A DNA stretch of 64,000 nucleotides from Amphibalanus amphitrite (Eukaryota; Arthropoda; Thecostraca; Balanomorpha; Balanidae), in assembly GCF_019059575.1 (NCBI RefSeq), contig NW_024883047.1, positions 80,597 through 144,596 of the forward strand, in the 5' to 3' direction. Under the pieces are notes generated by a model. It worked only from the letters and a program-made list of their open reading frames with translations. It was not told the origin of the DNA and did not search any database. The position numbers and the translations under genes are program-made. Of the stretch, positions 10,141-57,984 are shown one piece after another (within the stretch, counting starts at the first letter, position 1; each line of letters opens with the position of its first letter).

Positions 10141-11057
10141 CCCTCGCCCATGTAGGGGGGGCGTTGGTGCAACCCCCCCCCCCCCTGAGATTTTTCTTAG
10201 CTACACGCCGAACCGTTTCAGATAGCCTGCTCAAATTTTCAGTACCCTTTGGGGCATCCTTTACGCAACTTTTGGTAATTTTTTTTTGTTAAGGTCATGT
10301 CAGGTCACGGAGTTATGACGTCATAAAGGGAACAACCTCCGGCCAGATTTACGCTAAATTGGAGATTGCTTCACATTGGTATAAATGCCGACTGACCTGA
10401 CACACTGATGGATTGTTTTAGAATCACAACTAGCTGATTTGACATTGGCACAATGTCCGTTGACATTTTGAAGGTTACTAAAGGTCAAGGTAAGGTCAGT
10501 GACCTCGGTTGACCTGTAATGACTTCTTGCACTTGTATGCCTTTTCGGGGTATTTTGATGCCCTGAATTCGAATTTGCTATCCATTTCAGGCATCGTCGG
10601 TTGTTTCTTGTAGTTCATTTTGGGTCAGGGTCAGGTCAGTGACGTCACACTCCTGACGTGACCCAATGCACAAATGACCTTGCAGACTTCCGATGCTCCC
10701 AACGCATCATTTTTAGAGCTATGACATCGAAATATACACCAAACGATAGAGAATTGATCAAGGATCACGATAGTGAAGGTTTCAAGTTGATATCTCTTAC
10801 CGTTTTGCCGCAATCGGCGCCGAAATCTGAAAAAGTTATATTTTTCAGAAAATTTGACCTTTGACCGGTCATAAGTAGGCCAAATGTTGACCTAGGACCA
10901 AAAAATATACCACCAATCGCGAGATCTCGTTGAGAGCAATCCGTTGGTCTTTTCCGCTAAGCTCTACGACGCTCCGTTTTCAAACGCCAGGGGGGGGGGT
11001 CGCACCCCCCCCCCCCTGCATGGGCGAAGGTGGCAAAACACCGTTTACGGGCGATGG
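10141..11057 (+). mobile_element. TTAA-flanked element, family B, copy 1
   Basis: TTAA at 10137-10140 and 11058-11061 flank inverted termini CCCTCGCCCATG and (right end, reverse complement) CCATCGCCCGTAAACGG. A G-run/C-run hairpin follows at each end (about 10154-10190 and 10988-11017). The 917-bp interior has AGGTCA half-sites and no credible protein. A second copy in opposite orientation lies at 43310-44246. Confidence 0.88.
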
Positions 11058-11823
11058 TTAAAGAAGGAGAAAATGTACAGCAAATTAATTCTATGTATGG
11101 GTGTCCAGAAGTCTATTATGTATTCATGCACCTACGTTTTGAATGAGTGACACATACAGGAAAATGTTTTTTTTTCAATTTTCGAAGTCTTCTTGGAATT
11201 TTATATAAATCGTGCCCATCATAACAATTAACAATTTACTAGGCTGTCGCCTATAGCAATTTAAAAAATGTTCGCCATTATACGGTTTTTCAGTATGTAG
11301 TTAGAAAATCAAACTTATGTTTTTGGTGTTACAAGTTTATGTTATTGGAAGAGGTTATTCGAAATTATTTCGAAAGCAGCATGGTGTCTTGGGTAGCAAC
11401 TCCTCTGCAATTGTTGAAGGTAGGTATAATAGACCTTGCGTCACCGCAAAGACGCCACTAGTTATAGTCTCCAAAAACGTCAAAAGGTACTGAGTACTGA
11501 AAGCGCCAAGATACATTGCATTTTACCATTTCTGGAGCATGCTCTTTGTTTACCATTATAACTTCTCCTACCGAAAGAGTCACCATATTTTTGAGACCGC
11601 CAGTCATTTTCGCCACCGCCGGAGGCAGCAGGCTCCCGGCCCCGCGCCGGTTGGCCGCCAGTCCACGGCAGGCGCTTTGGAGCGGCGGTCGGGCCGCGGG
11701 AGGAGCCGTGGCCTCGGCGGGTCGTAGGTGGGCGATCCACAGTGGGTGCCGCCGCGAGAGGAGCTCTGGTCTGAACGGGTCGTATGTGGGCGATCCAGAG
11801 TGGGTGCCGCCGAGGAGTTCAAC
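11058..11823 (+). promoter_or_regulatory. Upstream region and GC-rich 5' UTR of the METTL24-like gene
   Basis: The AT-rich proximal part shows nothing. From about 11595 it becomes GC-rich and leads into the ATG at 11824. A segment (gggtcgtaggtgggcgatcc, about 11718 on) recurs at about 11777, 59 bp downstream, so the 5' UTR has a small tandem duplication. No TATA box is evident. Spurious ORFs cross this part. Confidence 0.4.
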
Positions 11824-14800
11824 ATGGTGAGGTAGTGACCAGTGTCCACGCAGCTGAGATACTCCTGCTTAGATCTGAATTTTCTGGCGAATTCGTTTCT
11901 GGTTTCTGGTTTCCATGTACTTAATTACATTTAAAAGTAATGCTTAACCAAAAACGATTTTGAGCGTTGTTTGTGTGGTTGACGAATGAACCGTTTTTAC
12001 CTGGAAAACATGGTCATAAACGCCTTCTAGATCCACCAATGGATTCCAATGAGTGTGGCTTACCTCCACAGGTCGTCTGCCGCCGCCACTACCTGCTGGG
12101 TCGGTCCTCCATGGTCAGGACCTCCCTGTTCTGCGGCGCCATATTCTGGATAGTGATGTTCGGCAAGCTGTCACCCCTGAGACAGGGGACGACACACTCC
12201 TCGGCTGACGTGGCTCTGGAGCGAATTGACCTGCCTCACGCCCAGCACAATGATTGGGAAGAAGATCGGAACTCCCTGGGCCACATCGCGACTAGCAGAG
12301 GTGCTGGGAAAGGCTCAAGAGAATCACAGAAGAGTTTCCCTCCATTTACAAACACATTTCCAGTGGCAGCGAAGGACGGAAATGCGAGGAAAATGGAACA
12401 CAATCCGCTCAGCTGTTTCACGTAAGTAATGATCGGGGAAATTGTTTTTTTTTCTCTTGCTTCCTCCTCCATTCATTGACCCGACGCTGGTCTGACCTCG
12501 ACCTAATCGTCATGCAGCTTCGGTCAAAATTACGTATTTTGAGCATCACCCTTGCATTCTACAGATAAATGCAGGGCTGCGGAGTCGGAGTCGGAGTCGG
12601 AGTCGGAGTCGGTCGGAGTCGACAGTTGTGACCGGATTCGGAGTCGGAATCGGAGTCGATTTTAGAAACCCGAGCCGGAGTCGGAGTCGGAGTCACCGAA
12701 AATCTGTCGACTCCGCAGCCCTGCTAGGTCTGCCGAGTCGGAGTCGGGAGTTGGAGTCGGTCGGAGTCGACTATTCTGCCCGGAGTCGGAGTCGGAGTCG
12801 GAGCTGGTTTTTGAAAGCCAGAGTCGTAGTCGGAGTCGGAGTCGCTGAAAATCCATCGATTCCGCAGCCCTGGATAAATGACTCATCAAACACGTGTCAC
12901 GCAAGCTCCATTCAATGGCTACATTGTAATAGTTTAACCCGCGCCCTGATGGGGGGGGGGCATTTTGGCCCCCCCTGTGGTTTTTCTTAAATAGCGAGAA
13001 AACGGCGGCGCGCAGCGCCGCCAAATTTTGGGTACCTTACCGGACATCAATTTGACACATTCACACAAAATTTCAAGTCACAGGTCACCTCAGGTCAGGA
13101 GTTATTGAGGTCAAACTGAGGTCATGTTCGAGTAAAAATGAGCAAAAAACATGACATCTTGAAACGCTCACCAATTCTACAGTTAACAAGCAATTTTAAA
13201 GTTCGTTATGTGGTTGTGTAGAGAAAAGACGGCGCTACAAAACTGCTATCTCGGATTTTCGAAATTTTGGGATTTTGACCCCCAAAAATAAAAAAAATGA
13301 TTTTTTTAGAAAAACTCAAAAAAAATTCAAAAAATTTTCGTTCAAAATGTGATAGTTCCTGCGCTCTTCTATATAGATACCAAATTTTAGATCGATACCT
13401 CTTTTTTGGCCAAGTTATAGCGAAAAAACTGTTAAAAATTGATGACGTCAAATTTTTGAACTCAATTTTTAGCAATTCTAGACCTCGTAGCGCAAAACGG
13501 AGACCACCATTGAACTCCCCGTGACGAGCTGCATCGAATCGATACCCATTTTGTGCAAAAATATCAACTTTGAAATTTGACCTAATTTGACCTGACCTTG
13601 ACCTGACCTTGACCTGACCTTGACCAAAACGTGACCTAAGCTGGCCCTAAAGTCTGTCTGACCAACATAATCGCATTTGTCATGTAAAATGGACCATAAA
13701 ACATGTATCACACGACACTTTCATATTGTGACCCCCCAGTGACCTGACCTCTGTGACCTGACCTGGTATCAGTGACCTCAAATAGCAAAATATGTGTTTG
13801 AAGAACATTTCCCCATCGATGATTTTCAATAAAATGCATTTTACACGATTTTACAACGCATTTCTTGAAATGCCTGTAAACGGTGAAAATTCGACCTTTG
13901 ACCTGACCTGTGACGTCATCGGTTTGACCGAGGTCAATGAAATTGGGTCACAAGGTAGTTCCCCGTTGGGGCTATCCAACACCGTTTACCGCTTGTCGCT
14001 ATGTTGCGTGGTTCTCGAGATCTGAGGGGGGGCCAAAATGCCCCCCCATCAGTAGCCTTTCTCATAAACATTTTTTACTATTACTGGTGTATAGTAGAAT
14101 AGTGATTTCAAGTTTACTAACCAGTATAACGCCTTTTGGGGCGACTAACGGAGCGAGCGAGAGGGTGGGCCTTGCACGTGCGAAATTGCGAGGGGGTACC
14201 TCCAACTGACTTGTGCACGGCACCCTACTAACCGGTCTCTACCGATGTGCCAAATTTGGGCACAATCGGCCCAGCCGTTCTCGAGATCTGGAAGCGGCAC
14301 CCTGCACGTGCGCACGTGCAAAATGGGTCCCAACTGACTTGTGCACGGCACCCTACTAACCGGTCCCTAACTGTGTACCAAATTTGAGCGCAATCGGTCG
14401 AGCCGTTCTCGAGATCTGGAAACGACCCCTGCACGTGCGCACGTGCAGCAGCGCCCCAACTCTGGCACATGGATATGCAGTGCCTAGTGGATGCCTACCT
14501 ACATACCAACTTTCAGCACAATCGGCCTAGTAGTTACCGAGATATTGCAACAATTACAAAACGGACACTTCTTCGTTTTGCACGTGGCACGTGCATAAGG
14601 GGTCACCCACATGCATCAAGAATAGTCCAATACTTGGTAGAAGGAATGAAGCTACCCTACAAAAATTACCGCGTGTAAATCGGTCAAGTGGTTGCTGAGA
14701 TATAAGCCTCGCAAAAGCGTGACCACGGCCGGCCGGCCGGCCGGCCGCTCATACTCAGAAATTTCCGTTAATCTAAGGAAAGACTACGCTCGCTTCGCTC

Positions 14801-17800
14801 GCTCCGTAATCACTGTTGCCCTCTGTCTCATAAACCAGTATAACGCCTTTTGGGGCGACTAACGGAGCGAGCGAGAGGGTGGGCCTTGCACGTGCGAAAT
14901 TGCGAGGGGGTACCTCCAACTGACTTGTGCACGGCACCCTACTAACTGGTCTCTAGCGATGTGCCAAATTTGGGCACAATCGGCCCAGCCGTTCTCGAGA
15001 TCTGGAAGCGGCACCCTGCACGTGCGCACGTGCAAAATGGGTCCCAACTGACTTGTGCACGACACCCTACTAACCGGTCCCTAACCGTGTACCAAATTTG
15101 AGCGCAATCGGTCCAGCCGTTCCCGAGATCTGGAAACGACCCCTGCACGTGCGCACGTGCAGCAGCACCCCAACTCTGGCACATGTATATGCAGTGCCTA
15201 GTGGGTGCCTACCTACATGCCAACTTTCAGCGCAATCGGCCAAGTAGTTACCGAGATATTGCAACAATTACAAAAGTGACACCTCTTCGTTTTGCACGTG
15301 GCACGTGCATAAGGGGTCACCCACATGCATCGGGAATAGTCCAATACTTGGTAGAAGGAATGAAGCTACCCTACAAAAATTACCGCGTGTAAATCGGTCA
15401 AGTGGTTGCTGAGATATAAGCCTCGCAAAAGCGTGACCACGGCCGGCCGGCCGGCCGGCCGGCCGGCCGGCCGCTCATACTCAGAAATTTCCGTTAATCT
15501 AAGGAAAGACTACGCTCGCTTCGCTCGCTCCGTAACAATAGTGAAAAGTAATTAGTAAAAGAGTAAGATTTCGAAGCTCAGTAACGCTTGAAAACGAGTC
15601 ATGGGACTTTCGTGTGGAAGATATCTTTTTAACCCTCGCATGTGTGCGGCGTTTTCCAGCTTCTAATGTGTAGGGGGGGGGGGGGGGTCGGTTTGACCCC
15701 CCCCTTGCCGTTTGGCTCCTGATCGAGCTAGAGCTTCGCGGAAAAAACGAGCGTGTTGCCCGTGACGAGAGGAAGCCGATGATACCCAATTTTAAGGTCC
15801 TAGGTCATTGGTTGACCTTCCAGGTCAGGTCAATGACCCAAAGTCGGGAAAATCGGGACCTGTTAGAAAGTCGTAAAGTGTGGCTGCTAAGGGGTTTTTC
15901 GGGGTGCTGATCACGAATATCGTGTTAGTTTTGATCACAGATGATGTCTTGAAGCATTTAGACCAGGTCGGGTCAGGTCAGGTCAGGTCAACCAGTAGGC
16001 GTCGTGACGGGTATTCGTAGTACGTGTCAACCGCCTCTGACAGCTTCGTAACATGTTACGAAGTCACCAAAACTACTTCGTAAATGTTCAAATGGTTGCT
16101 AAATTCGAATTCAGCTCCAAAAACTAGCCTAGAAACATGTAAAACTCGAAAAAGTGACCCGAGGTCACCCGAGGTCACCAAAGGTCAATGACCTGACCTG
16201 ACCTTCAGGTGACCTTGACACACACGGGAGTAACATCAAATCACATGTTTGAACGTTTGAAACCACGAAAAGCTTGCAAACACGCGGCTAGTGCGAGCCG
16301 ACATACGCGAAATCGCGATTACGGCCAAACATGGTCTCGGAAAAGAGGTCACAGGTCAAAGGTCATTTGGGTCAGGGTCATGAAATTTTCAGGGTAGGTG
16401 TAAAATTGATCAATGCGAGGGTACTGAAAGTTTCGTCGCGATCGGCCGCTTTTTACGCGAGTTATTCGCGAAAAACCATGGGGGGGGTCCATCCGACCCC
16501 CCCCCCTACACATGCGAGGGTTAATTTTATTTTGACCGTCGAAATGCGGTAGACACCGTTGCAGTTCTGGCTATATATCTTGGTAGCTAGACCAATGATC
16601 GGCTCGGGACCAGCATCCACGTATCGATAATTGAACGAGCTATCAAATAACATCGGTTTATGCCATGAAGGAACCGGCGAATGTTTGATGAATCATGCGA
16701 TTTAGAGATAGCTGACGCAACTAGATATTGTTTTCGATGGAAGGGGGTCAGAGTTTTTAAAGCAGGCCCCCACGGCACACCCACTTTTAAAATATTTCAG
16801 CATTCCGTGCGCTTCTTGCCATTAAGTTAAGGATCCCTGCAATCAAGTTGGCTTTGAATTTTGACCTAAATTGGCTCGAGCTCAATTTTTAATGTGGAGA
16901 TTTATTTTGTTGCGACCTTTCGTCTCGTCACTAAAATTTCATTTTCGGTAGCTGCTTCATTTACAGAGCAATGCAAAGGAAAGGGAAACACCCCCAGACC
17001 CGGGCACTGGATTGGACTAGACTTTCCCTGGGTTGGATTTCCCTGCCTCGGCTAGCCTAGTCCGTACCAAATCTGTACGTGGCTTTAAAAAATGCCCATC
17101 ACATTTCAGTTGCATGTATTTTGTTGTAGCTACATATTCACATGGTTATATCAAAGATTACAAACGCACAAGCCACAACCGCACATAGACACTTACGTAT
17201 CTACAACACATTGGCGAGAAAACAGATCTCCCACGTGCCGCCAGTACGGCCCAATATGAGCTCGTACGGGCGCTCCCGCGCCGCGGTCAAAGTTGCTATT
17301 TGCTCGTCGGCCTTCTCCTTCACACTGTGCAGTGTGCACGGTTAGGCACATGACTTCGATAGCCGGCAGATCCCGCTCGTAGCTGACCGTCACTTACCTA
17401 CAACGCTGCTTGTACGTGGGCATACGAGAACGTCGCACACAATAGCCCCAGTGGATGGCATCACTGATGTAATGCATGACTCCGTCCGACCAACCGGTAA
17501 AGTCATTAGAAGATCCAGAAGTTATTTGATATGCTGGGGGAGGCATGCTCCCCAATAATGTGCTTCATTTTTGCTTTTTCAAAAATTTCTCGTATTGTGA
17601 TATATTATGCCTATTTGTGCTGTTTAAATCAAACTTCTTATAAAAGTTGTTGATTTCCCTCTCAATGCGAGGAAAAATGCGTAAGTTCGTACCTTTGGGC
17701 GCTGCAGAGGGGGACAAATACTCCAACGTGCCCCTCGAACCATCAATGGTCACGGCGGTGAGCGCTATTTTGCTTCAAGTTGCATCTAAGTGTTCAGCAC

Positions 17801-20800: not shown

Positions 20801-23800
20801 AATATCACCACGGTCTGATAAATGGTTTGGGTAATTGCATGCATCGTAAAAATACCAACACAGCCACAGGTATCTATATATTACAGAAATGGGCTGCTGT
20901 GTTCACTGTTCATGCATTAACCCGCGCCCTGCCAGGGGGGGGGTGTTAAACACCCCCTGCAGTTTACATTCACGGTAAACTTTACCGTGAATATCTCAAA
21001 AACGGCGGCGCGCCACACCTTATCCTACATCATTTCTACATATGTATGTTGTGAAAATTTCAGACCCTGGTTACTTAAAGTCAGGTCACCAGGTCAGGTC
21101 AAATGACCTCACTACATAAGTTTCAATGTCTGCCAAAGCTACACGGAGTGACCAAACGCTTTGAAACTTTCAGAGATGCAAATGCACAAGAGCGACAAAA
21201 TGCAAAAAATGTATGTCTTGGAATTTTGATATCGATGACATAAGGTCAGGTCAATTTTGCGACCTTAAATTGAAAGTCGCCTTTTTAGACGGAAGTCATT
21301 ATAAACACTCGAAAACACTGAATTACTAGTATCTTTGACACACTGAACATGAAAATGGCACCCGTGACCCCTTTTTATAACCCTGAGGTCATCTCAGGTC
21401 ACCAATGGTATCGAACTTTTTCGCGAATAACTTTTGATAGAGGCATGCTAGAGCGATGAATACACCTTAGTTGTGTTTGGCCCGACGATACGGATGGACT
21501 GATATGGAACTTAGCCCTTATCGGTCAGGTCATGACCTTGACCTGAGGCCAAATTTTCAAGTTGACCTTGCCAAATTTTCAAGTTGACCTTGCCAAATTT
21601 TCAAGTTGACCTTTCAAGGTCAATTGATAGTTCATTCCACACGTCTTGACGAGAGGAACACGATGCTGGTAAAGGGAAGTTCGTGCAAATTTTGAGACGA
21701 AAGTTAGTGCCGAAAACTGGTTTCCGAAAATATCGGCTATTTTGGCAGTTTTTGCGGCCACTGCAGGTAAAACCGTTGACGGCAAAACCGTTGACGGCAC
21801 CCGGCATGATTTCTCTGAGCGCATTTATACAAATAATTTGTCTACATAGGATAGGGCCTTCTGTTTACAGAGGACCTCCTCCCCTGTCCCTTCCTACAGT
21901 GGGCGGCGACGCGGTTGGGAGTCTATTCTGTACAGTTTCCTGAGTTCTCAGTTCTCACTATAGTGAGAACTGAGAACTCTCTATAGAGAGTAGCAGGGAA
22001 CAGAAGCCGGAAGGTAATTTGCTTACAGTGGGCCTCCACTCTATGTACTTAACATACGACGCTGTCTTTGACTACCGGGGGCCTCCTGCCCACAGAGGGC
22101 CTCTTATCTACAGAGGGCTTCCTCTCTACAGATTGCCTCTTATCTACAGAGGGCCTCCTCTCTGCTGAGGGTGTCTTTCTCTCCAGAGGGCCTCCTTTAC
22201 AGAGGGCATCCTCTCTACAGAGGGTCTCCTCTCTAGTCTCTACAGGGACCTCCTCTCTACAGAGGGCTTCCTATCTATATAGGGCCTCCTCTCTTCAGAG
22301 TCTCGTCTCTACACATGACCTCCTCTATACAGAGGACCTCACCTCTGCAAAGGGCCTCCTCTCTTCAGAGGGCCTTCACTCTACAGACGGCCTCCTACCT
22401 ACAGAGGACCTCCTTTCTACTGAGGGAGTCCTCCTCTACAGAGGGCCTCCTCTCTTCAGACGATCTCCTCTCTACAGAGGGCCTCCTCTCTTCAAAAGGC
22501 CTTCTGATTTCAGACGGTTTCCTCTTTACAGAGGGCCTGCTCTCTACGGAGGGCCTCCTTTTTACAGAGGGCCTCTTTTTGCAGAGGGCCTCCTTTTTGC
22601 AGAGGGCCTCCTCTCTACAGGGGGTCTCCTCTCTAAGGGGGCCTCCTCTCTACACAGGGCCTCCTACCCACAGAGGGCCTCCTCTCTACTGAGGAGTCAG
22701 AGGGGCCCTAGCGGTCAGACACAGACACTAGTGGTTATTCACAGGAGATGAGAAGGGCCCTAGCTGTCACTTGTCAGGCTGGTCAGAGGGCCCTGATTGT
22801 TCTGACGTCATTTTTTAGATTCCCGCGTGAATTTCGTTCACCTCCGACGTGATTTTGGCCAACGTGGGCCGAAGGCCCACGTTGGATTCAGGCCGAAAGG
22901 ATTCAGGCCAGCCCACGTTGGCCTGAATCCTTTCGGGGGGGGGGGCCTCCTGAAAACCCCAAGGGAGGGGCGGGCGCCCCCTCCGCCCCCCCCCCTTGGC
23001 TACGTCCCTGCTATAGTAACCTAGTAAATTTGCAACTCCAGGTAAAAGTAATTTTTGCTTTATGAAACAAAATTTTACTGGTCAACAGTAAAATCGTGCT
23101 TTTTACTATTACTTTTTACTAGACAAAGCTTTATGAGAAAGGCTACAGACCGCGTTGCTCGGCAGACCCCATCTGGGCGCGGGTTAATGTGATCTGACAT
23201 GACCTTGAACTTTGTACGACATCTGTACATTAACGTTGAAAATTGCATATTTAACCTTTTGCCTGACCTTGATCTGACCTGTGGGGTGTGACCTACTCAG
23301 GCTTAATATGTTGTTCTGAAAAGAAACAAAGTGCTGAAGGCGTTCGCTTACCGTTTTCTCAGCTTCATGCGGCTATCCGTCCGGGAATAAGGCACAAAAA
23401 TGGGCCTTGGAGTGCCTAGCCTAGCCTAAGGGGAGTAGACACTCCCATCCGAAGGGGTGGCATTCGACTGAATAGTGAAAGTCCCAGCAGGGCGTGGGCT
23501 TATTTACCAATAGTTCATTCCTGAATGATTTGCGTCATCCTAATTAAAAAGTCCCAGCTTTTTCTGTGCCCGACCCCGAAGCTCTGTCTGATGGCTCATT
23601 TTAGTAGGTCAGCTTTTCACAAACGTCGCCTTGCCCTCACCATTCGAAATGGAGCAATTATTTAGGTGGCCAATTCCACATGTTTCTGGAGTGTTTGAAA
23701 CAACCAAAATGCGTTTTTGAATAGACCCGGCCGCAGTTTTTAGCCATGCCTCCTCCCCAGTTTACATTACCACAGTGGCTGGTCCGGTCATACAACTGTG

Positions 23801-46000: not shown

Positions 46001-47913
46001 CTCTGACCTCAGGTCACCAAAACTATTTTTCTATTTTTCTCTAGGTCAAACGCTACACAACCGTGCTCGTTATTTGTCTTTATCTCTAAAATTCTATTTT
46101 TAGCAGCTATTTGAAGTTTGCGTCTGTGACGCCGAAGTTTGCCGTGCAGGGGTCTAGAAAAATCGACCCTGTGACGTCATCAAGGGGGCTAGGCCCAAAC
46201 TTTTTACTTCAGAAGATGTCAAATTGATTGGAGAAAAGGTACTGAAAGTTTCGCTTTCCTATCCCTAAGCGTTCGGGAGCTATCGCAAATATTCGCCAGG
46301 GGGGGGGGGGCGAAAAACGCCCCCCGCCGGGCCCGCGAGGGTTAAAAAAACGAAATATAGAAAAGTTATAAATAATATAACGTTAACATTAGTTAGATAC
46401 AAAACTTTATGTAACTCTTATACCGAGTTACATAATAGGTTAGGTCCGGCGACCTAACAATAATAACAATAACAATATTACAATGACAATGATAACAATG
46501 ACCTAACAATAACAATAGGTCCGGCGAGGGTTAACTAAAATTGAATATAAAAAAACATCACAAAAACGTAATATCGTCTTTTTCTAGAACAATTTTACGC
46601 AATTAACACGTAAACCGCAAAACACGCACGAAGAAAACGTATAGTGTAGCCAGACCTTTACATGCACATTTAAATAAATAAGTGACGATGTCATTTACGC
46701 TTTTTATGCATCGGTGTTTTGATAGAAACTGACGTGCACATATACATGAATACGCAGGTTCTCCCTTACTAGGTATGTGGTCGACGGCAGCCAGAATGGC
46801 TGCCAGCTGGTCCTGGACAGCTGCTGAGCTGTTGTTAGCAGCTGCTGACCGGAGCAGCGCTGCCTCCATCCGGTCGGAGAGAGCTGTGCGGGACACCTCA
46901 GCAGCATCGAACTGGGCATCGAGGGCGGACGACAGGCCGCTCTGTGACTCGCTCAGGCTGGCGAGCCTGCTGCTCGTCGCGTTCCGCCAGTGCTGCAGGC
47001 CGTGGATTTGACCTAGTGTGTCCTGAACTGCGTCGAACTGATTAGAGACCTCGGAGTGAAGCTGCGTCAGGCCCTCAAGGCTGGCTGGAGGGTCACTTTG
47101 TGACTGAACTAAGCGGTCAAGCCGGCTGGCAGTTTCAGCTTGTCCTTGAGCTATGCTGTCCAAGAGGCTGACAGTTTCAGCTTGTGACTGTTCCAGCCTT
47201 TCGACAGTTTCAGCTTGTGACTGCTCCAACCTTTTGACAGTCTCAGCTTGTGACTGTTCCAGCCTTTTGACTGTTTCAGCTTGTGACTGCTCCAGCCTTT
47301 CGGCAGTTTCAACTTGAGACTGTTCAATGGCACCCAGCCTCGTCTCCAGGTCGGTATGTTGTCTCCGCTGCTCGAGCTGCGAGTCGTGAATGAGCTCCAG
47401 ACGGCTAGAGACGGCCGATAGCCCTGACTGGAGTTCCGCCAGCGATTTGGCCAGCTCGGCCAGCGGCCCGGCCGTGGCGGCGCGGCCCGCTGATCGGTAA
47501 AACCCATCTAGTGCCGCTATCACCTGATCCAGCGACACATCCTGCTCCTCAGGCGAGTCCGGCTCTTCGGAGGGTCCCTTGGTGGAAGTTGGTTCTTCGG
47601 AGGGTCCTTCGGAGGTAACCATCGTGATCGGCCCTTCAGAAGGGCCCTCAGTGGTAACCGCTTCTTTTGAGGGTGCCTCGGTGGTAACAGCTTCTTTGGA
47701 GGGTCTCTCGGTAGAAGTCAGCTCTTCAGAACGTCCGTCGGTGATAGACGGGTCTTCGGCTGGTACCTCAGTGCCGGACGCCCCCGGATGAAGCACTCGC
47801 GACTCCGACCCCGACTCGAGCACTGCAGTGACGGCGGCCGGGGGTGTCGTGGTGAGAGGCTCCGAGCTGACCTGGCTCAGCGCGCACGCCAACAGGAGCA
47901 CCGGCACCAGCAT
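34016..47913 (-). CDS. Secreted coiled-coil, EB-like module and SRCR-domain protein
   Basis: Six coding exons in transcript order: 47913-46770, 44646-44471, 36150-36063, 35660-35553, 35326-35185 and 34184-34016 (TGA). Splice sites are canonical and phases join to 1827 nt, 608 aa. Residues 1-17 (MLVPVLLLACALSQVSS) are a signal peptide. About 19-130 is Ser/Thr/Pro/Glu-rich with 'PSEE/GPSE' repeats, a probable O-glycosylated stalk. About 135-375 is coiled coil with four copies of the 11-residue RLEQSQAETVK. About 382-505 has Cys-rich EB-like modules (GQQCSQRTDC, ASCTSDRCACDSGFW, GSCLGDQDCDS). About 508-606 is an SRCR domain (WGLVCDDSWG ... NCNYLGW ... VAGVRC). The architecture suggests an extracellular recognition or adhesion protein; ligand unknown. 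The second exon could start at 44640 instead (two fewer codons). The introns are full of transposons. Confidence 0.85.
34185..35184 (-). other. Last intron of the SRCR gene
   Basis: Unique sequence between the two halves of the SRCR domain. The donor is at 35184 and the acceptor ends at 34185. It splits an Arg codon (AG|A). No other feature is seen. Confidence 0.6.
36357..38515 (+). mobile_element. TTAA-flanked element, family M, with nested TA element
   Basis: The ends CCCGCGCCCCGCTGGGG and (inverted) CCCTGCCCCGCTGGGC lie between TTAA at 36353-36356 and 38516-38519. Removing the insertion at 37163-38125 leaves about 1.2 kb, the normal family size. A run of seven TGACC pentamers is at 38139-38173, just after the insertion. 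It lies in the 8.3-kb second-to-third exon intron of the SRCR gene. Confidence 0.82.
37163..38125. mobile_element. TA-flanked element AGGGGAGAG(C/T)GGGG with internal GTTGTATCA repeats
   Basis: The inverted ends are AGGGGAGAGCGGGG and AGGGGAGAGTGGGG next to TA on both sides. Inside, GTTGTATCA and close variants recur in both orientations (about 37181, 37197, 37533, 37565, 37929, 38101). No protein is recognised. The layout, with GGGGA ends and a short repeated internal word, parallels 19557-20481. Confidence 0.7.
38669..40080 (+). mobile_element. Degenerate TTAA-type element(s), chimeric
   Basis: The left part (38669-39420) is collinear with family C at 12938-13660. A fragment of the CACGTG-rich tandem repeat intervenes at about 39420-39500. 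The right part (39510-40080) is collinear with the right half of family D. The left TTAA is mutated (TTAG) and the right terminus is lost. Confidence 0.65.
40288..41162 (-). mobile_element. TTAA-flanked element, family A, copy 3
   Basis: 875-bp inverted copy of 15633-16520, between TTAA at 40284-40287 and 41163-41166, with CCCTCGCATGTGT termini at both ends. The DR1 triplet is conserved at 40438-40457. Confidence 0.92.
41383..42870 (+). repeat. Degenerate 21-bp minisatellite in two blocks
   Basis: Block 1 (41383-41640) and block 2 (about 42120-42870) consist of variants of GGCCCTCAGATGGCCTTAAAG, most regular at 41515-41580. They are split by about 480 bp of AT-rich unique sequence. The open frames (GPQMALK repeats) are a consequence of the period of 21. 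Both blocks are flanked by a related segment (gcacacaaggggg...cacacgggcccgtgccctccccc at about 41190 and 42850). Confidence 0.8.
42871..43305. other. Unique intronic spacer
   Basis: No gene, repeat or motif recognised, apart from the end of the segment shared with about 41190. Within the SRCR-gene intron. Confidence 0.4.
43310..44246 (-). mobile_element. TTAA-flanked element, family B, copy 2
   Basis: 937-bp inverted copy of 10141-11057, between TTAA at 43306-43309 and 44247-44250. The ends are CCCTCGCCCGTAAACGG and (inverted) CCCTCGCCCATGTAGG, with G/C-run hairpins at both ends. No protein. Confidence 0.9.
44640..44804 (-). repeat. 82-bp tandem duplication of an exon acceptor region
   Basis: The segment starting ctatccctgagggagtagca recurs at 44641 and 44723. 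It includes the polypyrimidine tract and acceptor used by the second coding exon of the SRCR gene (44646) and the first bases of that exon. The upstream copy is therefore a decoy acceptor. Confidence 0.8.
45431..46341 (+). mobile_element. TTAA-flanked element, family Q
   Basis: 911 bp between TTAA at 45427-45430 and 46342-46345. The ends are CCCGGCCGGGCCCGGGGGG and (inverted) CCCTCGCGGGCCCGGCGGG. The interior has AGGTCA half-sites and a segment related to family F. Just beyond, at about 46515-46533, only the terminal aataggtccggcgagggtta of a family F element survives. It lies in the first intron of the SRCR gene. Confidence 0.85.
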
Positions 47914-48000: not shown

Positions 48001-48153
48001 CACATCTGGTCGGTGGCCCCGACATTCCGACCTGATGATAGCATGCTTTGGCCCCAGTGTTTATTGGAAATTCAGGATTGAGGTTGTGGAACGCTGTAGG
48101 GACTTACCCAGCGGTATACACTCCCTAATACGATTTGAATAGACATGACTTAA

Positions 48154-49189
48154 CCCTCACCGGACCTATTGGTTTTCTACATACGCGCCGGCCGAGGGGG
48201 GGGGGGGGGCGGGTACGACCCCCCCTCGCCGTTTCGCCCCTGGTGGAGCTAGCGCGTGGCGGAAAAAAAACGAGCGTGTGCGCCGTTACGAGACGCAGAG
48301 ATTGGTACCCCATTTTAAGGTCCTAGGTCAACCGGTGACCTCTGAGGTCAGGTCAAGTGCCCCAGGGTACGGTTCAGGTTTTGGTGAATAACTTCGCAAA
48401 AAACGGCCGCAGAGCCGCGATTTTGGCAGCATCGTGTTCGCCTCGCTCAGGCGCGTCGAATGATATGCTTTTTGTTCGGGTCAGGTCAAGTTAGGATGTT
48501 GACCTCAGGTCAAGGTCAGGTCAGCACCCCCAGGTCACGAAGTTGGTCGAAAGAGGTCATGTCGCATATCATTCGATTCGGCAGGTCTTCCTGAGTCCAT
48601 TGGTGGCTTTCTCGACTCGCTAGCTCAATTTGGTCGGGAGTTATTGACGAAAAACTAATATGACCTTGATGACGTCATAAATGACGTCACGGAAGCTCAA
48701 CATTGCAAAAGTGACGCATCTAACCTTGCAAGGAGTGCATCAAATCACGATTCTGTGTGCTTGAGATAGTTGGAGATCGTTTCCGGCGCCAGAATAGCAG
48801 TTTTCATTTTTCCCCATTGACTTATAATGGTGAGGTCACGAAAATGACCTGACCTCATATGACCTTTAGGGAAAATCCGAGATATACAAGTTGTGAGACT
48901 CATAATGGATACTAGATCCTGCAAGTTTCATTTCCCTGTGACATCTCCTCTGGCGGTGAGGGCGTTGCGAAGTTGCGACATCTGAAGACCGTGCAGAGGT
49001 TCACTTATGACGTCATAGGTCAGTGACCTGACCTGACCCAAAATGCAGTTGGTGTCAAAAGATGCGGCTTGGATCAAAGGTCAGGTATGCCAAGTTTCAG
49101 CTCTCTATCGCCAGTGTGTTCGGAGCTATTGCGAAAAACCCTATGGGGGGCGGCACCCGCCCCCCCCCCCCCCCCTCGGCCGGCGAGGG
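48154..49189 (-). mobile_element. TTAA-flanked element, family F, copy 2
   Basis: Inverted copy of 26206-27234 (1036 bp). TTAA at 48150-48153 on the left; on the right TTAA at 49190-49193 is shared with the next element. Collinear throughout with few differences. Confidence 0.9.
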
Positions 49190-49193
49190 TTAA

Positions 49194-50192
49194 CCCGCGC
49201 ACCGACAGGGGTCTGCGCCAACTTCGTACCGACGGGGGGGGGGGCGGATGACCGCCCCCCCCCTGAGATCTCGAGAACGAAGCAAGATAGCGACAAGCGG
49301 TAAACGGCATCGGATACGCACGGCCAAGATCTACAATTTTTACTAAGGTCATTTTCAGGTCAGGTCAAAGATGACGTCACAGGGGTCGAAAAAGTCAAAA
49401 TGGCGGCGCTAGATATGGAGAGAGTTTTTCTCGAATAACTTTCGAATTAGTCAAGATAGGAACAAACTAAGGGCATCATCGTGATCTTCTCGTCAATCCG
49501 CATCGAATGATATATATGTTGACCTCGAAAGGTCAAGGTCAAAGGTTGACCTCAGGTCACGTGACCTCGAGGTCATCATGTATATCATTCGATGCGTCTT
49601 GACGAGCTGAACACAATGAGACCATCCACGCGTCTGTATCTTGTTCCTGTACGGAGTTATTGGCCAAAAACCTTTGGTGACCTTTGATGACGTCACATGA
49701 CCTCACAGCTGCCCAACAGCAAAACAGACCTCAAGGTAGTGAAGGTTGATCGTATATGAAGTCATGTATGGTATATGGGGCCATTCCGACCCGTTTTAGT
49801 GGTAAAAACAGGGAGTTGATTTTTCCCCCATTGACTTATAATGGGGAGGTCGCGAAATTGACCTGACCTTAGGTCACCGATATCAAAATTCCGAGATATA
49901 CAAATTGTAGCTACTAATGACCTAATAATATCCTGTGAGTTTCAAAGGCCTCCGACATCTACTGTAGCTCTGGCACGGTGACAAAGTTAAAAAAGTGACT
50001 TGAGGTTGGGTCATTCAAAGTGACCTGGTGACCTGACCTTAAAAGGTAGGAGGTTCAAACTTGCACACCATGTGTAAAATTGATGAGGTTATAGTCACAC
50101 CAAATTTCGCGGCGCTACGCGCCGCGGTTTTCCCGCTATTCGCGAAAAACCTCAGGGGGGCGGATATCCGCCCCCCCCCGTCGGTGCGCGGG
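49194..50192 (+). mobile_element. TTAA-flanked element, family G
   Basis: 999 bp with inverted termini CCCGCGCACCGAC. It abuts family F copy 2 through one TTAA (49190-49193) and the next element through another (50193-50196). G/C-run blocks lie at about 49235-49262 and 50154-50179. No protein. Confidence 0.9.
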
Positions 50193-50527
50193 TTAAACCG
50201 CGCCCCGTAGTGTGGGGCCGAAACGCCCCCCTCCCCCCGTTCTTTTCCGTTGATATCTTATAAGCGACTGCCGATATCGTCATCAAACTTTCAGGATACC
50301 TCCAGGCATCCATTTTACACATATGTGACCAAAAATTTCCAGAGGCTATGGTAGGTTGGCCGCAAATGACGTCAGAATGACGCCATGTTCTGCCATTTTC
50401 AACCAAAAAAATGTTTCGCGGGAAGAGCTGTGAGGGCTACAGATGTGATTGTGAAGGGAAAAATGAGAAAGACATAAAAGGTGTAGAATCAATAGGGCTA
50501 TAAAACTGCTGTCTCGGATTTTTTTAA

Positions 50528-53336
50528 CCCTCGCCCGCACATGGGGGGTGGTTGCCCCCCCCCCCCCAGGTAGTCTTCCTGCTCTGCACTCAACATTTTT
50601 AGAGCTAGAAGGCTGATTTTTCGTATATCTGCTCCTCTATCCTTATTTAATGTCCACTGAAAATTTCAAGTTTCTGTGATTTCTGGTTTCGAAGATATGA
50701 CCTTGTTTTTCAGGTCATGTCATGACCAAAATGGCCAATTCTCAACATCTTGCGTTTGCCATGGGCCTTGTGAGCTTTTGACACCTTGATTTCGGCCTTT
50801 TTTGCCAGTCTTACCTCCCACCTATCATGGAACATGTTGTTCGGCGATGTACAGGTGTCAAGGTCAGGATCAAGGTCAACCTAGGTCATCTAAGATAATT
50901 GCGTTTTAGGCAAGCTCAATTTAGGTACTTTTTGTGAAGTTTTTTTGACTGCATTTTTGGTAAAAGCTTCTCAGATCATGATTTCATGAAATATGGACAC
51001 AAAAACAATCGGTGCACACATCAGTATGCACACAGACACACACAGACATACAAACACATATAATTGACCTCGACCTAACTTGATCTGAAATGACCTCAGC
51101 AGCAAAAATCTGGTCGGGTAGTGTGACAAAGAGGTTCTAGCTGGGGCATTCCACGATAGATCGTACCACTTTTCTCCAATTTGACACCCTCATCTCTCGG
51201 AATTTGACGAGAATTGGTCTCAGGGGTAATCAGGGGCTCTGAATCCACCTGTAACAATTTCAGGCTTATCAGATAAGTATTTTTTTAGTTATGGTGTATA
51301 ACATTTCTTGGATCTTGCTTTGCAGCGCTAAGTTTGGCGGGCTGTAACTCTAAGACGGATTATTCAAATGCCAAATGTTATATAACATTGAACTTGCAAT
51401 GAAACAGAGATTAATATGTATTTTTGAAATTTCGAAAAATACGCTATTTTTGATATATGACATATCGAGTTTTCTTTCATTAGTATTTTTTGGACTTTGG
51501 GACCAAATTTTTTTGAATTTTTATTTCTTTAAAAAAATATTTGGCTCATTGTTAAGAAGTATGCAAAAAATTAGGAAGGTGTTCTTTCTATAAATGTATT
51601 TATTTTACGTCACGATAACGGTTTCGAATAGTGATTTCGGGAGGGGAGCTTACAAATGGCGTGGTAAAGCTGCCTAGTGACATCACGGGTTACTGAAATT
51701 TCAATTCAAGTCTGAGTCATCTGAAAAAAGTGAAAGGAGGGTTCATTCAACCCTCTTTCCTATAAGCGCGAGGGCGAAAAAGGCTGTTTGGTTCTGACAT
51801 TGTTTTGGACGCCAATGACCATAGCTGTCCGAGATGAAAGTTACAGGACGCATACATGGTGTCCTCCAGAGGTCTCACAACTTGTATATCTGGGAATTTT
51901 TCAAGGTTACATGAGGTCAGGTCGGTCACGTGACATCACTGTTATAAATCAATGGGGAAATATAAAAACTGTTATTTTGACGCCGAGAATGATCTAAAAC
52001 TATCCCACGTACATGGTATCGTGATTTCATGCACTCCTTGCAAAGTCCAATGCTTTACTTTTGCATTGTTAACCTTGCGTGACGTCATTTATGACGTCAC
52101 TAGGGTCGTACGAGTTTTTCGTCAATAACTCCCGATCAAATGGAGCTAGAGAGTCGGGAAAGCCACCAATGGACTCGGGAAGACCTTCCGAATCGAATGA
52201 TATGCCATATGATACCCTTTGCCCAGCTTCGTGACCTGAGGGGCTCTGACCTGACCTTGACCCGAGGTCAACTACTTAAGTTGACCTCACCCTAGCAAAA
52301 AGTATACCATTCGATGCACCTGAGCTAGGCGAACACATTGATGCCAAAATCGCGGCTCTGCGGCCATTTTTTTGCGAAGTTATTTACTAAAAACCGAACC
52401 CGTAACTTCAGTCACGTGACCTGACCTCAGACGCTACCGGTTAATCTGAGACCTTAAAATCGGGTACCAATCGCTGCGACTTGTAACGGCACACACGCTC
52501 GTTTTTTCCGCGAGGCTCTAGCTCTATTAGAAGCGAAACGGCGCGCTGGGGTCGTATCAACCCCTCCGAAACCCATTTTGTTTGCGGGAAAATGAGGAAC
52601 TTATAGAAAGAACACCTTTCTAATTTTTTGCATGTCGATTTGCAATGACATGAAGATTATTTTGAAAAAAATAAAAATGTGAAAAATTTTGGTCCCAAAA
52701 GTCATTAGAGGCAAATGAAAAAAGATTAAGGTTTTTGCTCAACAATGAAATTTTTTCTTTGGAATTTTTAAATAATAATATTAATTTTTGATTCATTGCA
52801 AGCTTAGTGTTGTTTACTTTTTGTTGGTTGCTTAACCCGTTCTTGAATTATAGGCCATCAAACTCACCGCTACATACCGAAGTTAAAAACATGTAATGCA
52901 ATATAACTCAAAAAGTTTTGATCTGAGAAGTCTGATATTTTGCCAGGCGTCTTTGGGGCCTATGTTTACCCCTAGGACCGATTTTCATTAAAATCTGAGA
53001 GATGAGGGTGACGGGCCTGGTACGATCTATCGTGGAATGCCCCAGCTGGCTTGGCACCAGAAAACAGCATCGTCATCGGTAAATGATAAGCAGCGCACTT
53101 GATATCCAACGGTGACCCAAAACAGCAACATTTTTTAGTTTGACCTAAGCTGGAAGGTCAATGACTGACCTGAGAAGCTAAAACTGGGTATCATTGGATT
53201 CGGCTCTTCCTAAAGAATCTTTTTGGTCTTTACCGCTAAGCTCTACCTCCAACAGGAACGAAATGACGCGGGGGGTGGCAACCCCCCCCCCCCCATGTGC
53301 GTTCTAGGATGGGAAAATGGCATGTGCGGGCCAGGG
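50528..53336. mobile_element. TTAA-flanked element, family J, containing a long-arm inverted-repeat element
   Basis: The termini CCCTCGCCCGCACATG and (inverted) CCCTGGCCCGCACATG lie between TTAA at 50524-50527 and 53337-53340. Subtracting the nested element (51141-53045) leaves about 900 bp. Confidence 0.82.
51141..53045. mobile_element. Long inverted-repeat element (arms ~450 bp) nested in family J
   Basis: The left arm begins CTGGGGCATTCCACGATAG and the right arm ends with its perfect 28-bp inverted match at 53018-53045. Similarity continues inward to about 51600 and from about 52590, including inverted versions of gaaggtgttctttctata. The centre (about 51690-52570) is a diverged family F copy. 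No coding region. Confidence 0.82.
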
Positions 53337-53340
53337 TTAA

Positions 53341-54557
53341 CCCGGCACCGCCTGGGCTATTTCCGTACCCACATCAGCCTGGGGGGGGTCGGATCCGACC
53401 CCCCCCCCCTGTTATCTCGAGAACCAATGGTCGTATCGAGCCCCGCGAGGCGGCGTTCGAAAGGTCTCTACGAGACCTTCCCAAAGCACTCTTAAGATTT
53501 TAAGATTGAGGTCAACTTTCGGGTCAAGGTCAGGTCAAAGGTCAAATTCAGGGGTTTTGCATGATTAGGCTTACGGACAGCGGAATCGATAGCTGCTGCT
53601 CGAAACTCACCACAAATGACCTCAAAGACCTAGTGAAGGTACCATGTGCGTATAGGGGTCATACTAAGTACGGGTCAAGGTCAGGTCAGGTCACGAAAGG
53701 TCACGGTTTTCACTTTCTGCTACATGGGCGTGCGACACATGTTTTATGGCTTATTTTTGACGCCAAATCCGATGGTAATGGTTATATGTGACCCCAAGTC
53801 ACTGTGCTGGTGATAAGTGTGCATTGAAAGCATGAAAAATCGTTTATACCATACATAACTAAACGAGGGCTAAGAAAAAAAGTCAATTTTTCAACTTTTT
53901 ATTTTTGACATAAAAATGCACTTTTCTAGACCAGCTTTGTCCCAGGAATCTAGTGGTGCCATTTGTTTTCACATGCGATGTTCAGAAGTGCCTCTAATTC
54001 GCGAAAATGCTGATGACGTCACCATGCCCTATGCATGTTGGAGCTATTTTTTACAATTTGGGGGTCAAAAATCAAGATAGAAAGTTGAAATTTGGGACAT
54101 CTAATGTTCTAATAGAGCTCTATAACATATATTCCGTTTTTTTGGAAATTCTCAAAATTTTGGATTTTATTAGCTGTTTTCCAAAAAATATAGTTTTTTG
54201 AATTTTTAGGGGTGAAAAACGCATTTTATGGAAAATCCGAGATAGCCATTTTAAAGAACTCGTTGAGCTGCGTCTTTTCATGTCCTTAATTTGCAATTTG
54301 CTTAAAACCTCGATTTTTGGCGATTTTTTAAACATTTACCATTTTTTGACTGAAAACGCCATGTAGTTACATCACTAAAATCGATATATCTCAGAAATTT
54401 TTGAACATTTTTTCTTTAAAATTGCACAGGAGACGTCAAATTGATGTGGTAGAAGGTATGCGAAGTTTCAAGTTGATAGCGCAAGCGGTTCATGAGTTAT
54501 TCAAGAAAAACGGAGGGGGGGGGGTCGGATCCGACCCCCCCCCCAGGCGGTCGCGGG
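53341..54557. mobile_element. TTAA-flanked element, family L
   Basis: 1217 bp. Termini CCCGGCACCGCCTGGG and (inverted) CCCGCGACCGCCTGGG. TTAA at 53337-53340 is shared with family J; TTAA at 54558-54561 on the right. The hairpins contain GGTCGGATCCGACC inside the G/C runs (about 53384-53410, 54516-54545). The right tip recurs as a short remnant at about 59424-59461. Confidence 0.88.
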
Positions 54558-54752
54558 TTAATGTTTGGATTTTGACCCCCAAAAATTAAAAAAGTAATTT
54601 TTGGGATATATTTGCCCAAAAAAATCCCAAAAGCTTTTGGAACTAAAAAAACGGAATATATATGATAGTCCCCTGCCTTCTATCCACATACCAAATTTCA
54701 GATTGATGCCTCTTTTTTGGCCAAGTTATAGCGAAAACACTGCTCAAAATTA

Positions 54753-55400
54753 CAGGGTGTCCCAAAATTAATGTCGCACCCTCCCACAACCTTTATTTTG
54801 CCTTCTACGGCGCAATATCAACATACTTCGCCGGTGCTGGCTCCCAGACCATCTTGGCTACATTTTAGTCACGTGACCTTCGAATTTTTGTGACCCTGAC
54901 CAGTGACCGGTCAAGGGGTGTATGGAGGTCATTTCCGGGGCAGTACCCAGCGCGCGCGGACCAGGTGTCCAGGATGGCAAAACTGCAAAACAAATCGTTC
55001 CACAGTGGGGCAGTCGGCATTGTTGCCGCCTGCCGGCGGATGACCCACGGCCAGGTCGCCGAGGCACTGGGCATGAGTTGCCGCAAGATTTGGCGCTGAT
55101 TGTCACACGACAGAAGCGGATAGACGCTTGAGAACAAGCTAGGTCGCGGCAGGAAGACTACCGCCAGGCGGGTATAGCGCAGATCGTCATCGCGAAGTGC
55201 GGAGCTAAGGACAGGCTTATCCACAAGGAAACTGGCAAGGAGGCTGATTGCCAACAGTCATCCTGCAGTCTCCAGGTCGACAATCCATCGGCACCGGATG
55301 TTGTCTCTAAAGCTGAAGCCCTAACAAGCCACGTCTCCAGTCGAAAACTTCTGCTGAACATTGTCCACGGCCATCTTTCAATGGGTCGGCGCCCCGGCTC
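54753..55400 (+). pseudogene. Tc1/mariner-like transposase remnant
   Basis: A terminus-like ACAGGGTGTCCCAAAA follows TA at 54751-54752. Downstream, fragments in shifting frames match the DNA-binding part of Tc1-like transposases: GQVAEALGMSCRKIWR (about 55050-55098), TLENKLGRGRKTTARR (about 55128-55175) and STRKLARRLIANSHPAVSRS (from 55220). Frames shift and stops intervene, and no catalytic DDE region is recognisable. The right terminus was not found. Confidence 0.65.
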
Positions 55401-56130: not shown

Positions 56131-56134
56131 CATC

Positions 56135-56511
56135 ACTCACAGGACGAAGATCACCGGGAGACTCTGGTGGCGACTTTTTCGGCACGGGAATGACAGTCGC
56201 CTGTTTTCATAGCAATGGAACTTTGCCTTCCCTGAGGGATTTGTTGAAAATGTGAGCCAGTGGCACTGCCTGACGGCCAATTCGATGCTAAATTCTTTCA
56301 TAAGGCGTACTGGTAGATCTTCCTTTGGAACTGCCATGCTCTGCCGCATGGCTGCGATAGCTTTTGAGCCACGTGCCATGGTTGTATTTCAAATGGGATT
56401 TCATCAGCTGGCAGAAAAGATGGTAGATCAGTTGAATAGACAGTGGTTCAAACGTTGTGCAGATATGTGCGAAAAAGTCATTGATGATATCTGCAGTAGG
56501 TACCAACAAAC
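56135..56511 (-). pseudogene. Non-LTR retrotransposon reverse transcriptase fragment
   Basis: Minus-strand fragments in two or three frames give the N-terminal RT domain typical of LINEs: MKEFSIELA, then PLAHIFNKSLREGKVP, then KQATVIPVPKKSPPE and GDLRP, with a stop where the conserved Trp of 'LLWK' is expected. Upstream, ADIINDFFAHIC fits the region before the RT domain. Frameshifts and the stop make it dead. The left boundary of another element (56512) interrupts it. Confidence 0.8.
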
Positions 56512-56791
56512 TACACCTTTTTGCACTACAAATCGGCATCTGGTCATTCAATTTCGACACTTTGCATTCAATATCGACAGAGCTACCTCCATTTTGACAT
56601 ACCTCACACATTTCGAATTATTTCATCAATTTTAAATATCACCGGTTCATATTCGATCTGTTGCGTCAAATTTCGACAGTGGCATAGAATTTCGACAATG
56701 GTCAGCTGTAAATGAAGAACTGCATTTGACTTTGACATTTTACGATCAATTTAGACAACGGTTGTTTTGCTTTTTTATAGATTTACTTTAA

Positions 56792-57984
56792 CCCGCGACC
56801 TGGTGGGGGGGGGGCTATTTTTTGCCCCCCCTCCAGACTTTTCGATATATCTCCAGAACCGCTGCGCCGATCGTCACCAAACTTTCAGTACCCTCCCGGA
56901 CATCAATTTTACACATTGTGACCAAAAAATTTTTCCAAAAGCTATGATAGGTTGGCCGGAAATGACGTCAGAGTGACGTCATGTTCTGCCGTTTTCGACC
57001 CAAAAAAGGGTTTCGCGGGAAGAGCTGTCAGGCCTATAGCTTTGCAAATACAGAAAAATGTTTAAGACATAAAAGCTGTAAAATTAACACGGCTACAAAA
57101 CTGCTATCTCGAATTTTTGAATTTTTTTGATTTTGACCCCCAAAAATCAAAAAATAGATTTTTGGGAAATAATAGTCAAAAAATCCAAAAAGTTTTTTGA
57201 ATTTCGCAAAAACCGGAATATATGTGATAGTCCTTACCGCCTTCCATCCACATACAAAATTTTAGATTGATACCTCTTTTTTGGCGAAGTTATAGCGAAA
57301 AAAACTGTTCAAAATTGATGACGTCAAATTTTCAAACTCAATTTTTAGCAATTCTAGACCTCGTAGTGCAAATCAAAGACCACCATTAGACTCCCCGTGA
57401 CGAGCTGCATCGAATCGATATCCATTTTATGCAAAAATATTAACTTTGAAATTTGACCTTTTTTGACCTGACCTTGACCTGACCTCCACCAGAAAGTGAC
57501 CTAAACCGTACCTGATGGTCTTATAACCAACACCATTGGGTTGGAAATGAAAAACTGGCCATAAAACATGCATCGCACAACCTTAGTAAAGTTGGGTTCA
57601 TGTGGTGACCCTTCGTGACCTTTGGTGACCTGACCTGTGACCTGACCTGGTATAACCAGTGACCTCTAATAGCAACATATGTACTAGACAACTGACGTCT
57701 TATCGCTGATTTTCGACAAAATGCGTTTTACTCGGTGTTATAGCGCTTTCCCTAGAAGCCCCGTGAACGGTGAAACATTTTATCTTTGACCTGACCTGTG
57801 ACGTCATCGGTGACCCCGAGGTCAATAAAATTTGGTTTCCCTCAACAAATTTGACAGGGCTATCGAACGCCGTTTGAATTTTGCGGATCCGTCCAGTAGT
57901 TTCGGAGATACGAGGGGGGGGGGGCAAAAAATAGCCCCCCCCCCCACCAGGTCGCGTTATAAACAGACCCCACCAGGGCGCGGG
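56792..57984 (+). mobile_element. TTAA-flanked element, family I
   Basis: 1193 bp between TTAA at 56788-56791 and 57985-57988. Termini CCCGCGACCTGGTGGGG and (inverted) CCCGCGCCCTGGTGGGG. G/C-run blocks at about 56804-56831 and 57913-57946. It is the uninterrupted relative of family H and related to families C and D. Confidence 0.92.

Follow-up and report, generated by a model that had tools for sequence, protein, structure and literature searches.

Within a 64,000-nucleotide (nt) stretch of Amphibalanus amphitrite DNA (contig NW_024883047.1; hereafter the window), we examined a family of TTAA-flanked repeats whose ends carry a palindrome built from a run of G and a run of C. We conclude that these elements are very probably gene-less (non-autonomous) piggyBac-type DNA transposons, belonging to several subfamilies and mobilised by a transposase made elsewhere. 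On the DNA side, we observed the TTAA flanks, the tips, an asymmetry between the two ends, a repeat at a narrow range of offsets, the palindromes, co-variation between the ends, and one paralogous empty site.

To build an inventory of the family, we read inward on both sides from all 240 TTAA sites in the window, which has a GC content of 47%, and took the tips that start with CC. Ends were paired by position and likeness; partial units entered some of the counts but were never counted as complete. The result was 13 complete TTAA-bounded elements and about nine partial units (Table 1), in agreement with an earlier note on this DNA that had claimed at least fifteen units on one plan. The family extends from 1 to 61,735; the span of 10141..57984 proposed in that note was too narrow, being exceeded by right ends at 629 and 61735. 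The strict tips TTAA-CCC[TG]CG and CG[CA]GGG-TTAA occurred 25 times, compared with a mean of 0.3 and a maximum of 3 in 50 dinucleotide shuffles, and TTAA-CCN ends with a G-run/C-run palindrome occurred 27 times (dinucleotide shuffles: mean 0.02, maximum 1). There were 78 runs of at least six G or C, as opposed to a shuffle mean of 25 and maximum of 40, and 62 of the 78 fell no more than 80 nt from one of 32 listed tips. Not counting the inserts in e08 (967 bp) and e16 (1909 bp), the complete elements are 875-1217 bp long. The longest stop-to-stop frame, at 152 amino acids, lies inside the foreign insert of e08; elsewhere in the complete elements the frames reached at most 105 amino acids and no long open frame was found, which upholds the description of the units as non-coding and 0.9-1.2 kb in size.

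TTAA flanks both sides of all 13 complete elements, confirming the TTAA duplication reported before. The tips of piggyBac from Trichoplusia ni (T. ni) are CCC, and 24 of the 26 tips of the complete elements start in the same way. The exceptions are CCA at the B end of e02 and ACC at the A end of e06, so a general start of CCC(T/G)CG, as had been claimed, describes most tips but not these two. The fourth base is T or G, and as a result the strict superfamily hallmark CC[C/T]T is found in only part of the tips (PMC2872659).

Each of the 13 complete elements has one single end, which we call A, and one double end, which we call B. At the A end, a subfamily word X is followed by a G-run/C-run palindrome starting at nt 14-17 from the tip; in e06 the G-run starts at 15, counting from the tip at 26206. 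At the B end, a second copy of X lies 26-28 bp further in and the palindrome is found at nt 40-43 in 12 of 13 elements. It starts at 41 in e12, and the interrupted run of e10 starts at 42 with its longest part from 47. A scan that permitted all offsets from 9 to 59, and in which X took in three bases of the G-run, placed the repeat at 26 in five elements, at 27 in five and at 28 in three. In T. ni piggyBac, bp 34-63 of the right end are almost identical to bp 7-35 of the left end, the core domain makes its contacts at bp 7-16, and a palindromic repeat at bp 17-33 is the binding site of a CRD dimer (PMC7351741). The A-end palindrome thus starts at nt 14-17 here compared with bp 17 in T. ni piggyBac, and, judged from sequence, the end plan agrees with that of T. 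ni piggyBac in position and in kind. The piggyBac-type reading given in the earlier note is therefore strengthened by an asymmetry, present in 13 of 13 elements with its offset of 26-28 bp, that the note had missed. The note had also stated that the two termini match over 13-17 bp. Such an exact run exists in four of the 13 elements (e04, e07, e10, e15) but not in the rest, and the identity of the outer B tip to the A tip ranges from 8 to 17 of 17 over the whole set. For the inner B copy, 9-13 of 12-15 bases agree with the A end, and in 6 of 13 elements this agreement surpasses that of the outer tip.

We compared X with the inner copy at the B end of the same element and found a mean agreement of 0.86, which fell to 0.51 when elements were permuted and was reached in none of 20,000 permutations; subfamily-specific words do co-vary between ends, as previously proposed. 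Elements e02 and e11 are 69-71% identical, and X is unchanged between them, with 8 of 8 positions alike in the A-end word and also in its inner copy. Retention of X at this level of identity suggests that the element ends are constrained. The centres of the palindromes vary from subfamily to subfamily as well. At the A ends of 13 representatives, the two pairs adjoining the runs were Watson-Crick pairs in 22 of 26 cases (permuted mean 10.3), and three pairs gave 31 of 39 (permuted mean 14.4), with neither count reached in 10,000 permutations. The A end of e16 yields no pairs, and using its B end instead brings the A-end count to 23 of 26. When all 28 ends were taken together, 40 of 56 inner pairs were complementary compared with a permuted mean of 20.4. 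A-end palindromes keep their dyad symmetry through base changes, and B-end palindromes do so less well.

G-runs were 4-16 and C-runs 5-13 long at the 29 ends measured, a set that left out the interrupted ends e06 A, e10 B and e20. The palindrome described in the earlier note is present, but its run lengths, a G-run of 6-15 with a matching C-run, have to be revised. Among 28 ends, the tip-side G-run averaged 9.8 and the C-run 8.4, and the two lengths were weakly anti-correlated (Pearson -0.41, permutation 0.015; Spearman p 0.11). An inverted duplication in the window (18687-23010 / 28849-33179) has arms that are 99.7% identical over 4.33 kb and differ by six events, of which four are run lengths, three of them in G or C runs, including one in an element end. 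Because run lengths differ between near-identical arms, the long runs are unstable, whether in the genome itself or only in its assembly. We dropped the idea that run length has a function, given the weak anti-correlation of G and C lengths and their variation between near-identical copies. Most likely, the long G/C arms represent a palindromic site lengthened by run slippage, with the constraint lying on dyad symmetry and not on run length. The palindromes had been called unusual, which remains apt for the homopolymer arms; their co-variation is less odd, because a palindromic site belongs to the piggyBac plan.

Evidence for insertion came from e16 and e17, which adjoin each other inside e20. 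We removed both, retained one TTAA, and aligned the joined flanks to paralogues. In alignments to e18 (82% over 456 columns), to e09 and e03, and also to e07, the flanks ran through the join without interruption, so that this one paralogous site supports closure to a single TTAA. Furthermore, the junctions e14/e15, e15/e20 and e16/e17 each consist of one common TTAA. The flanks of the other elements examined gave no two-sided match that would reveal another empty site within the window.

Several observations weigh against a piggyBac-type assignment. The TTAA position of e20 reads GAAT in e18, CAAA in e09 and GAAA in e03, so the target TTAA is not seen in these paralogues, and resolution to a single TTAA rests on paralogues instead of orthologous alleles. 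The outer B tips of e02/e11 and e06/e14 match X over its first bases only. Counts based on X overstate independence, because the 13 complete elements have only 10 distinct words (e02/e11, e04/e10 and e06/e14 are alike), and the permutation of X kept like pairs such as e02/e11 among the permuted ones. At 12 B ends, only 14 of 24 inner pairs were complementary (permuted mean 7.9, with 79 of 10,000 permutations as high), and the dyad is therefore looser there. Most of the palindromes also exceed the 17-19 bp seen in piggyBac, and their letters are different. Transposases of the piggyBac superfamily are of the DDD type (Pfam PF13843), and none with matching ends was found in the window. A tblastn search of the window with the T. 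ni transposase, a query of which 411 residues were checked against a PDB chain, gave a best E of 0.46, in line with the earlier statement that the window has no transposase, although such a search could miss a very distant or very decayed copy.

By analogy with piggyBac, we propose how these elements could move, including the proteins, their DNA contacts and the chemistry. A transposase supplied from elsewhere would place its core domain on X at both tips. The palindrome beside the A-end X would hold a dimer of transposase C-terminal domains, and a second, non-cutting dimer would occupy the inner X and palindrome of the B end, producing an asymmetric synapse. Excision would leave TTAA overhangs, the donor site would close to one TTAA, and the element would join a new TTAA.

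We weighed other explanations of the same features. Kolobok-type transposons likewise duplicate TTAA, but their termini are 5'-RR and YY-3' (PMC9587614), whereas 25 of the 26 tips of our complete elements start with CC; together with the asymmetric repeat about 27 bp in, which is a feature of T. ni piggyBac, this makes a Kolobok identity extremely improbable, and we consider it excluded by the tips. It is also conceivable that the elements are of piggyBac type and that their G/C-run palindromes work as folded DNA or RNA (cruciform, hairpin or G-quadruplex) and not as a duplex site for the C-terminal domain. The survival of A-end dyad symmetry through base changes would fit such folding, and, as single-stranded DNA, eight chosen ends gave better folds than their shuffles did (z -1.9 to -4.7), although for one of the eight 9 of 200 shuffles folded equally well. 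A palindromic CRD site at the same place in piggyBac already explains the dyad symmetry and its position, however, and a defined stem length is not kept, because run lengths differ between nearly identical copies. We therefore regard folding as unlikely. Slightly less unlikely, but still doubtful, is that the G/C runs arose around a short palindrome through nothing more than slippage or faulty assembly. The preponderance of run lengths among the differences between the duplication arms (4/6) speaks for it, and it may well account for run length; it leaves unexplained why the palindromes sit at 14-17 and 40-43, why the words co-vary and why the centres show a dyad. A viral or prokaryotic origin was rejected: the strict pattern had no match in viral contigs and six scattered matches in prokaryotic contigs, and two A-end interior patterns gave 2 and 0 matches in viral contigs, all of which we took as chance.

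Returning to the elements as piggyBac-type transposons, we asked how far their interiors are alike. Elements e08 and e16 were analysed without their nested inserts and the two parts of e20 were joined; in site counts the pieces were separated by N. Read in one A-to-B orientation, some elements with different ends could be aligned over nearly their whole length, at 71% (e03/e18), 66% (e07/e18) and 59% (e17/e18), and e02 and e11, which have the same word, aligned at 71%. When 13 interiors were aligned jointly, the median identity was 0.43 compared with 0.34 for shuffled letters, with overlapping ranges (lowest observed 0.35, highest shuffled 0.43). Interior likeness is weak over the whole set and lies largely next to the ends. 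Its correlation with likeness of X was moderate (Spearman 0.42) over pairs that are not independent. Tentatively, we distinguish two size classes, one of about 1.1-1.2 kb (e03, e07, e08, e17, e18) and one of about 0.9-1.0 kb (e02, e04, e06, e10, e11, e14, e15 and, with less certainty, e12 and e16).

Among 6-mers within the elements, AGGTCA/TGACCT was the most strongly enriched, with 267 occurrences in 19,276 bp compared with 62 in the 44,724 bp outside; near-identical copies and elements with approximate limits were part of this count. Fifteen non-redundant elements contained 206 sites, where 6.9 (dinucleotide) and 24.9 (trinucleotide) were expected, and 23 occurrences of the palindrome TGACGTCA, where 0.18 were expected. 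We take AGGTCA to be a nuclear-receptor half-site and TGACGTCA to be a CREB/ATF site. Between diverged elements, 172 of 330 AGGTCA/TGACCT sites were kept in place, whereas other 6-mers were kept in 3,156 of 20,875 cases; the figure for TGACGTCA was 20 of 52, these counts coming from 11 pairs read both ways and hence not independent. Clusters occupy similar places within a size class, at 660, 810 and 984 in e07, at 662, 814 and 995 in e18, and at 666, 815 and 993 in e08.

These clusters could be functionless products of short-repeat slippage, an explanation to which we give a little less than an even chance. Only 12 of the 206 sites are isolated, and the commonest spacing is a 5-bp step, followed by 10-bp and 6-bp steps, as slippage would predict. 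In addition, e18 and e20 share no kept site (0/15 and 0/2; e20 has two sites), which is contrary to conservation. Slippage does not readily explain why 16 of the 18 one-mismatch neighbours of AGGTCA stand at 0.1-2.1x expectation compared with about 30x for the exact word; the higher neighbours are ACGTCA, which is part of TGACGTCA, at 9.0x and GGGTCA at 3.9x. Nor does it readily explain the conservation of place in a set of eight pairs that omits the contrary pair e18/e20 as well as e06/e15 and e03/e09, where 142 of 236 AGGTCA sites (60%) were kept compared with a median of 17% for 93 frequent 6-mers, AATTGA being equally high and CATCAA and ATCAAT nearly so. Part of this excess stems from clustering and from the aligner, because a block-shuffled control gave 14% compared with 3%. 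A more speculative explanation, which we hold to be possible but distinctly less probable than slippage, is a long-lived gene-less piggyBac-type lineage whose interior is under selection, with clusters that bind host factors and aid mobilisation and with end words that follow the active transposase. Scaffolds only 59-71% identical would then keep AGGTCA/TGACCT clusters about 140-230 bp apart together with the TGACGTCA palindromes; factors of nuclear-receptor or CREB/ATF type bound to the array would open germ-cell chromatin; and the copies of the end word would change in concert, tracking whichever transposase is active.

Table 1. Coordinates of complete and partial elements in the window.
Unit	Positions	Strand	Description
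e01	1..629	.	partial, cut by window start; A end at 629; tip and palindrome; 91% like e04
e02	10141..11057	+	complete; A end left, B end right; word CCCATGTA
e03	12938..14047	+	A end 12938; B-end inner palindrome 14026-14047; outer B tip lost where another repeat joins
e04	15633..16520	-	complete; B end left, A end right; word CATGTGTA
e05	20921..21900	+	A end 20921, mirrored at 30943 by the inverted duplication; palindrome centre TGTTAAACA; 21900 is an arbitrary working limit
e06	26206..27234	+	complete; A tip ACC, not CCC; word CCGGCCGA
e07	27354..28534	+	complete; word CCCCACT; palindrome centre CTATTTATAG
e08	36357..38515	+	complete; word CCCCGCT; foreign insert 37161-38127, a nested repeat with 28-bp inverted ends, 89% complementary
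e09	38660..40070 (approximate limits)	+	degenerate; similarity to e03/e18 and residual palindrome
e10	40288..41162	+	complete; 92% identity with e04
e11	43310..44246	-	complete; word CCCATGTA, as in e02, despite 69-71% agreement
e12	45431..46341	-	complete; word CGGGCCCGGC
e14	48154..49189	-	complete; 95% identity with e06
e15	49194..50192	-	complete; one TTAA common with e14, one with e20
e20, A-end part	50197..50527	+	interrupted at a TTAA by e16 and e17
e16	50528..53336	+	complete; word CCCGCACAT; nested repeat 51139-53047 with perfect 30-bp inverted ends, holding a truncated piece related to e06/e14
e17	53341..54557	-	complete; one TTAA common with e16; palindrome centre TCGGATCCGA
e20, second part	54562..55100 (far limit approximate)	+	continuation beyond e16/e17
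e18	56792..57984	+	complete; word ACCTGGT; paralogue of e20 in which the interrupted site is intact
e19	61650..61735	-	A end at 61735
Further partial units	23183		lone tip
	46440-46530		short unit with tip 46530; e14-type outer B tip, then simple ATAACA-like repeat
	near 59425-59455		worn A end

Other features of the window were recorded alongside the elements. The two arms of the inverted duplication are separated by a 5.8-kb spacer that holds e06, e07 and a methyltransferase frame. This open frame (23809-24807) matched Methyltransf_22 (E 6.4e-18) and Methyltransf_21 in Pfam, which we ran on eight chosen window open reading frames (ORFs), 19 ORFs of at least 150 codons having been listed; the other seven chosen ORFs gave no match above the cut-off and one below it (E 0.083). 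Within a frame open over 232 codons lies a minisatellite with a unit of about 18 bp (22072-22694, mirrored at 29167-29782). Two element ends, one at 14048-14110 and the other at about 23100-23146, are broken off by the identical sequence TAGCCTTTCTCATAAA, which is perhaps the end of another transposon. Another G-run/C-run palindrome, with centre CACACGGGCCCGTGCC, occurs off the element-end plan at 41200-41229, 38 bp past the end of e10, and at 42871-42903. The window also contains a tandem duplication of about 0.7 kb with 96% identity (14119-15535) and an imperfect palindrome of 849 bp (60254-61102; 86% over all, arms 90-93% complementary). Scans of the window with ARAGORN (bacterial code) and Rfam (gathering scores) were empty.

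With about ten end words and palindromes on a common plan in 64 kb, the window is in effect a mutagenesis experiment by nature on how piggyBac ends are recognised. If matching transposases are found in the genome, the code between DNA-binding domains and ends could be read by comparison. Such a code bears on why piggyBac ends are asymmetric, a property that has been called puzzling and enigmatic (PMC7351741). The conserved clusters also lead one to ask whether regulatory sequence under selection can reside in an element that has no gene of its own.

Among known systems, T. ni piggyBac resembles the elements in its TTAA target, its asymmetric ends, the recurrence of the core-bound repeat about 27 bp in, and the adjoining palindrome (PMC7351741); unlike it, our elements are gene-less, have other letters and long G/C palindrome arms, and form several subfamilies with their own words. 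In piggyBat of Myotis lucifugus, a repeated motif is likewise followed by palindromes bound by the C-terminal domain and the ends are asymmetric, but its right end is without a palindrome, whereas here, as in T. ni piggyBac, both ends have one (PMC11707139, PMC13405395). A crustacean host is shared with the mPok miniature inverted-repeat transposable elements (MITEs) of Pokey in Daphnia, which belong to the piggyBac family, are large for MITEs (about 750 bp) and have TTAA as their target; unlike our elements, they are apparent deletion derivatives of known autonomous elements with ends of 12 or 16 bp, and the excerpted account describes no G/C-run palindromes (PMC3849761). The closest precedent is provided by the coral CMITEs, which are gene-less and TTAA-flanked with CCC tips, comprise several families that combine different ends with a related interior, and can form tandem arrays (PMC2872659). 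They differ in being about 100 bp long with a 75-bp conserved core, compared with 0.9-1.2 kb here, and in an internal region far better conserved between families; G/C-run palindromes are not described in the excerpts of that paper (PMC2872659). Our literature search, mainly of titles and abstracts and hence weak evidence of absence, found no piggyBac-type elements with G/C-run palindromes or AGGTCA clusters. Taken together, what seems new in comparison with these systems is the G/C-run palindrome set on a piggyBac plan, the number of subfamilies in so small a window, and the AGGTCA clusters.

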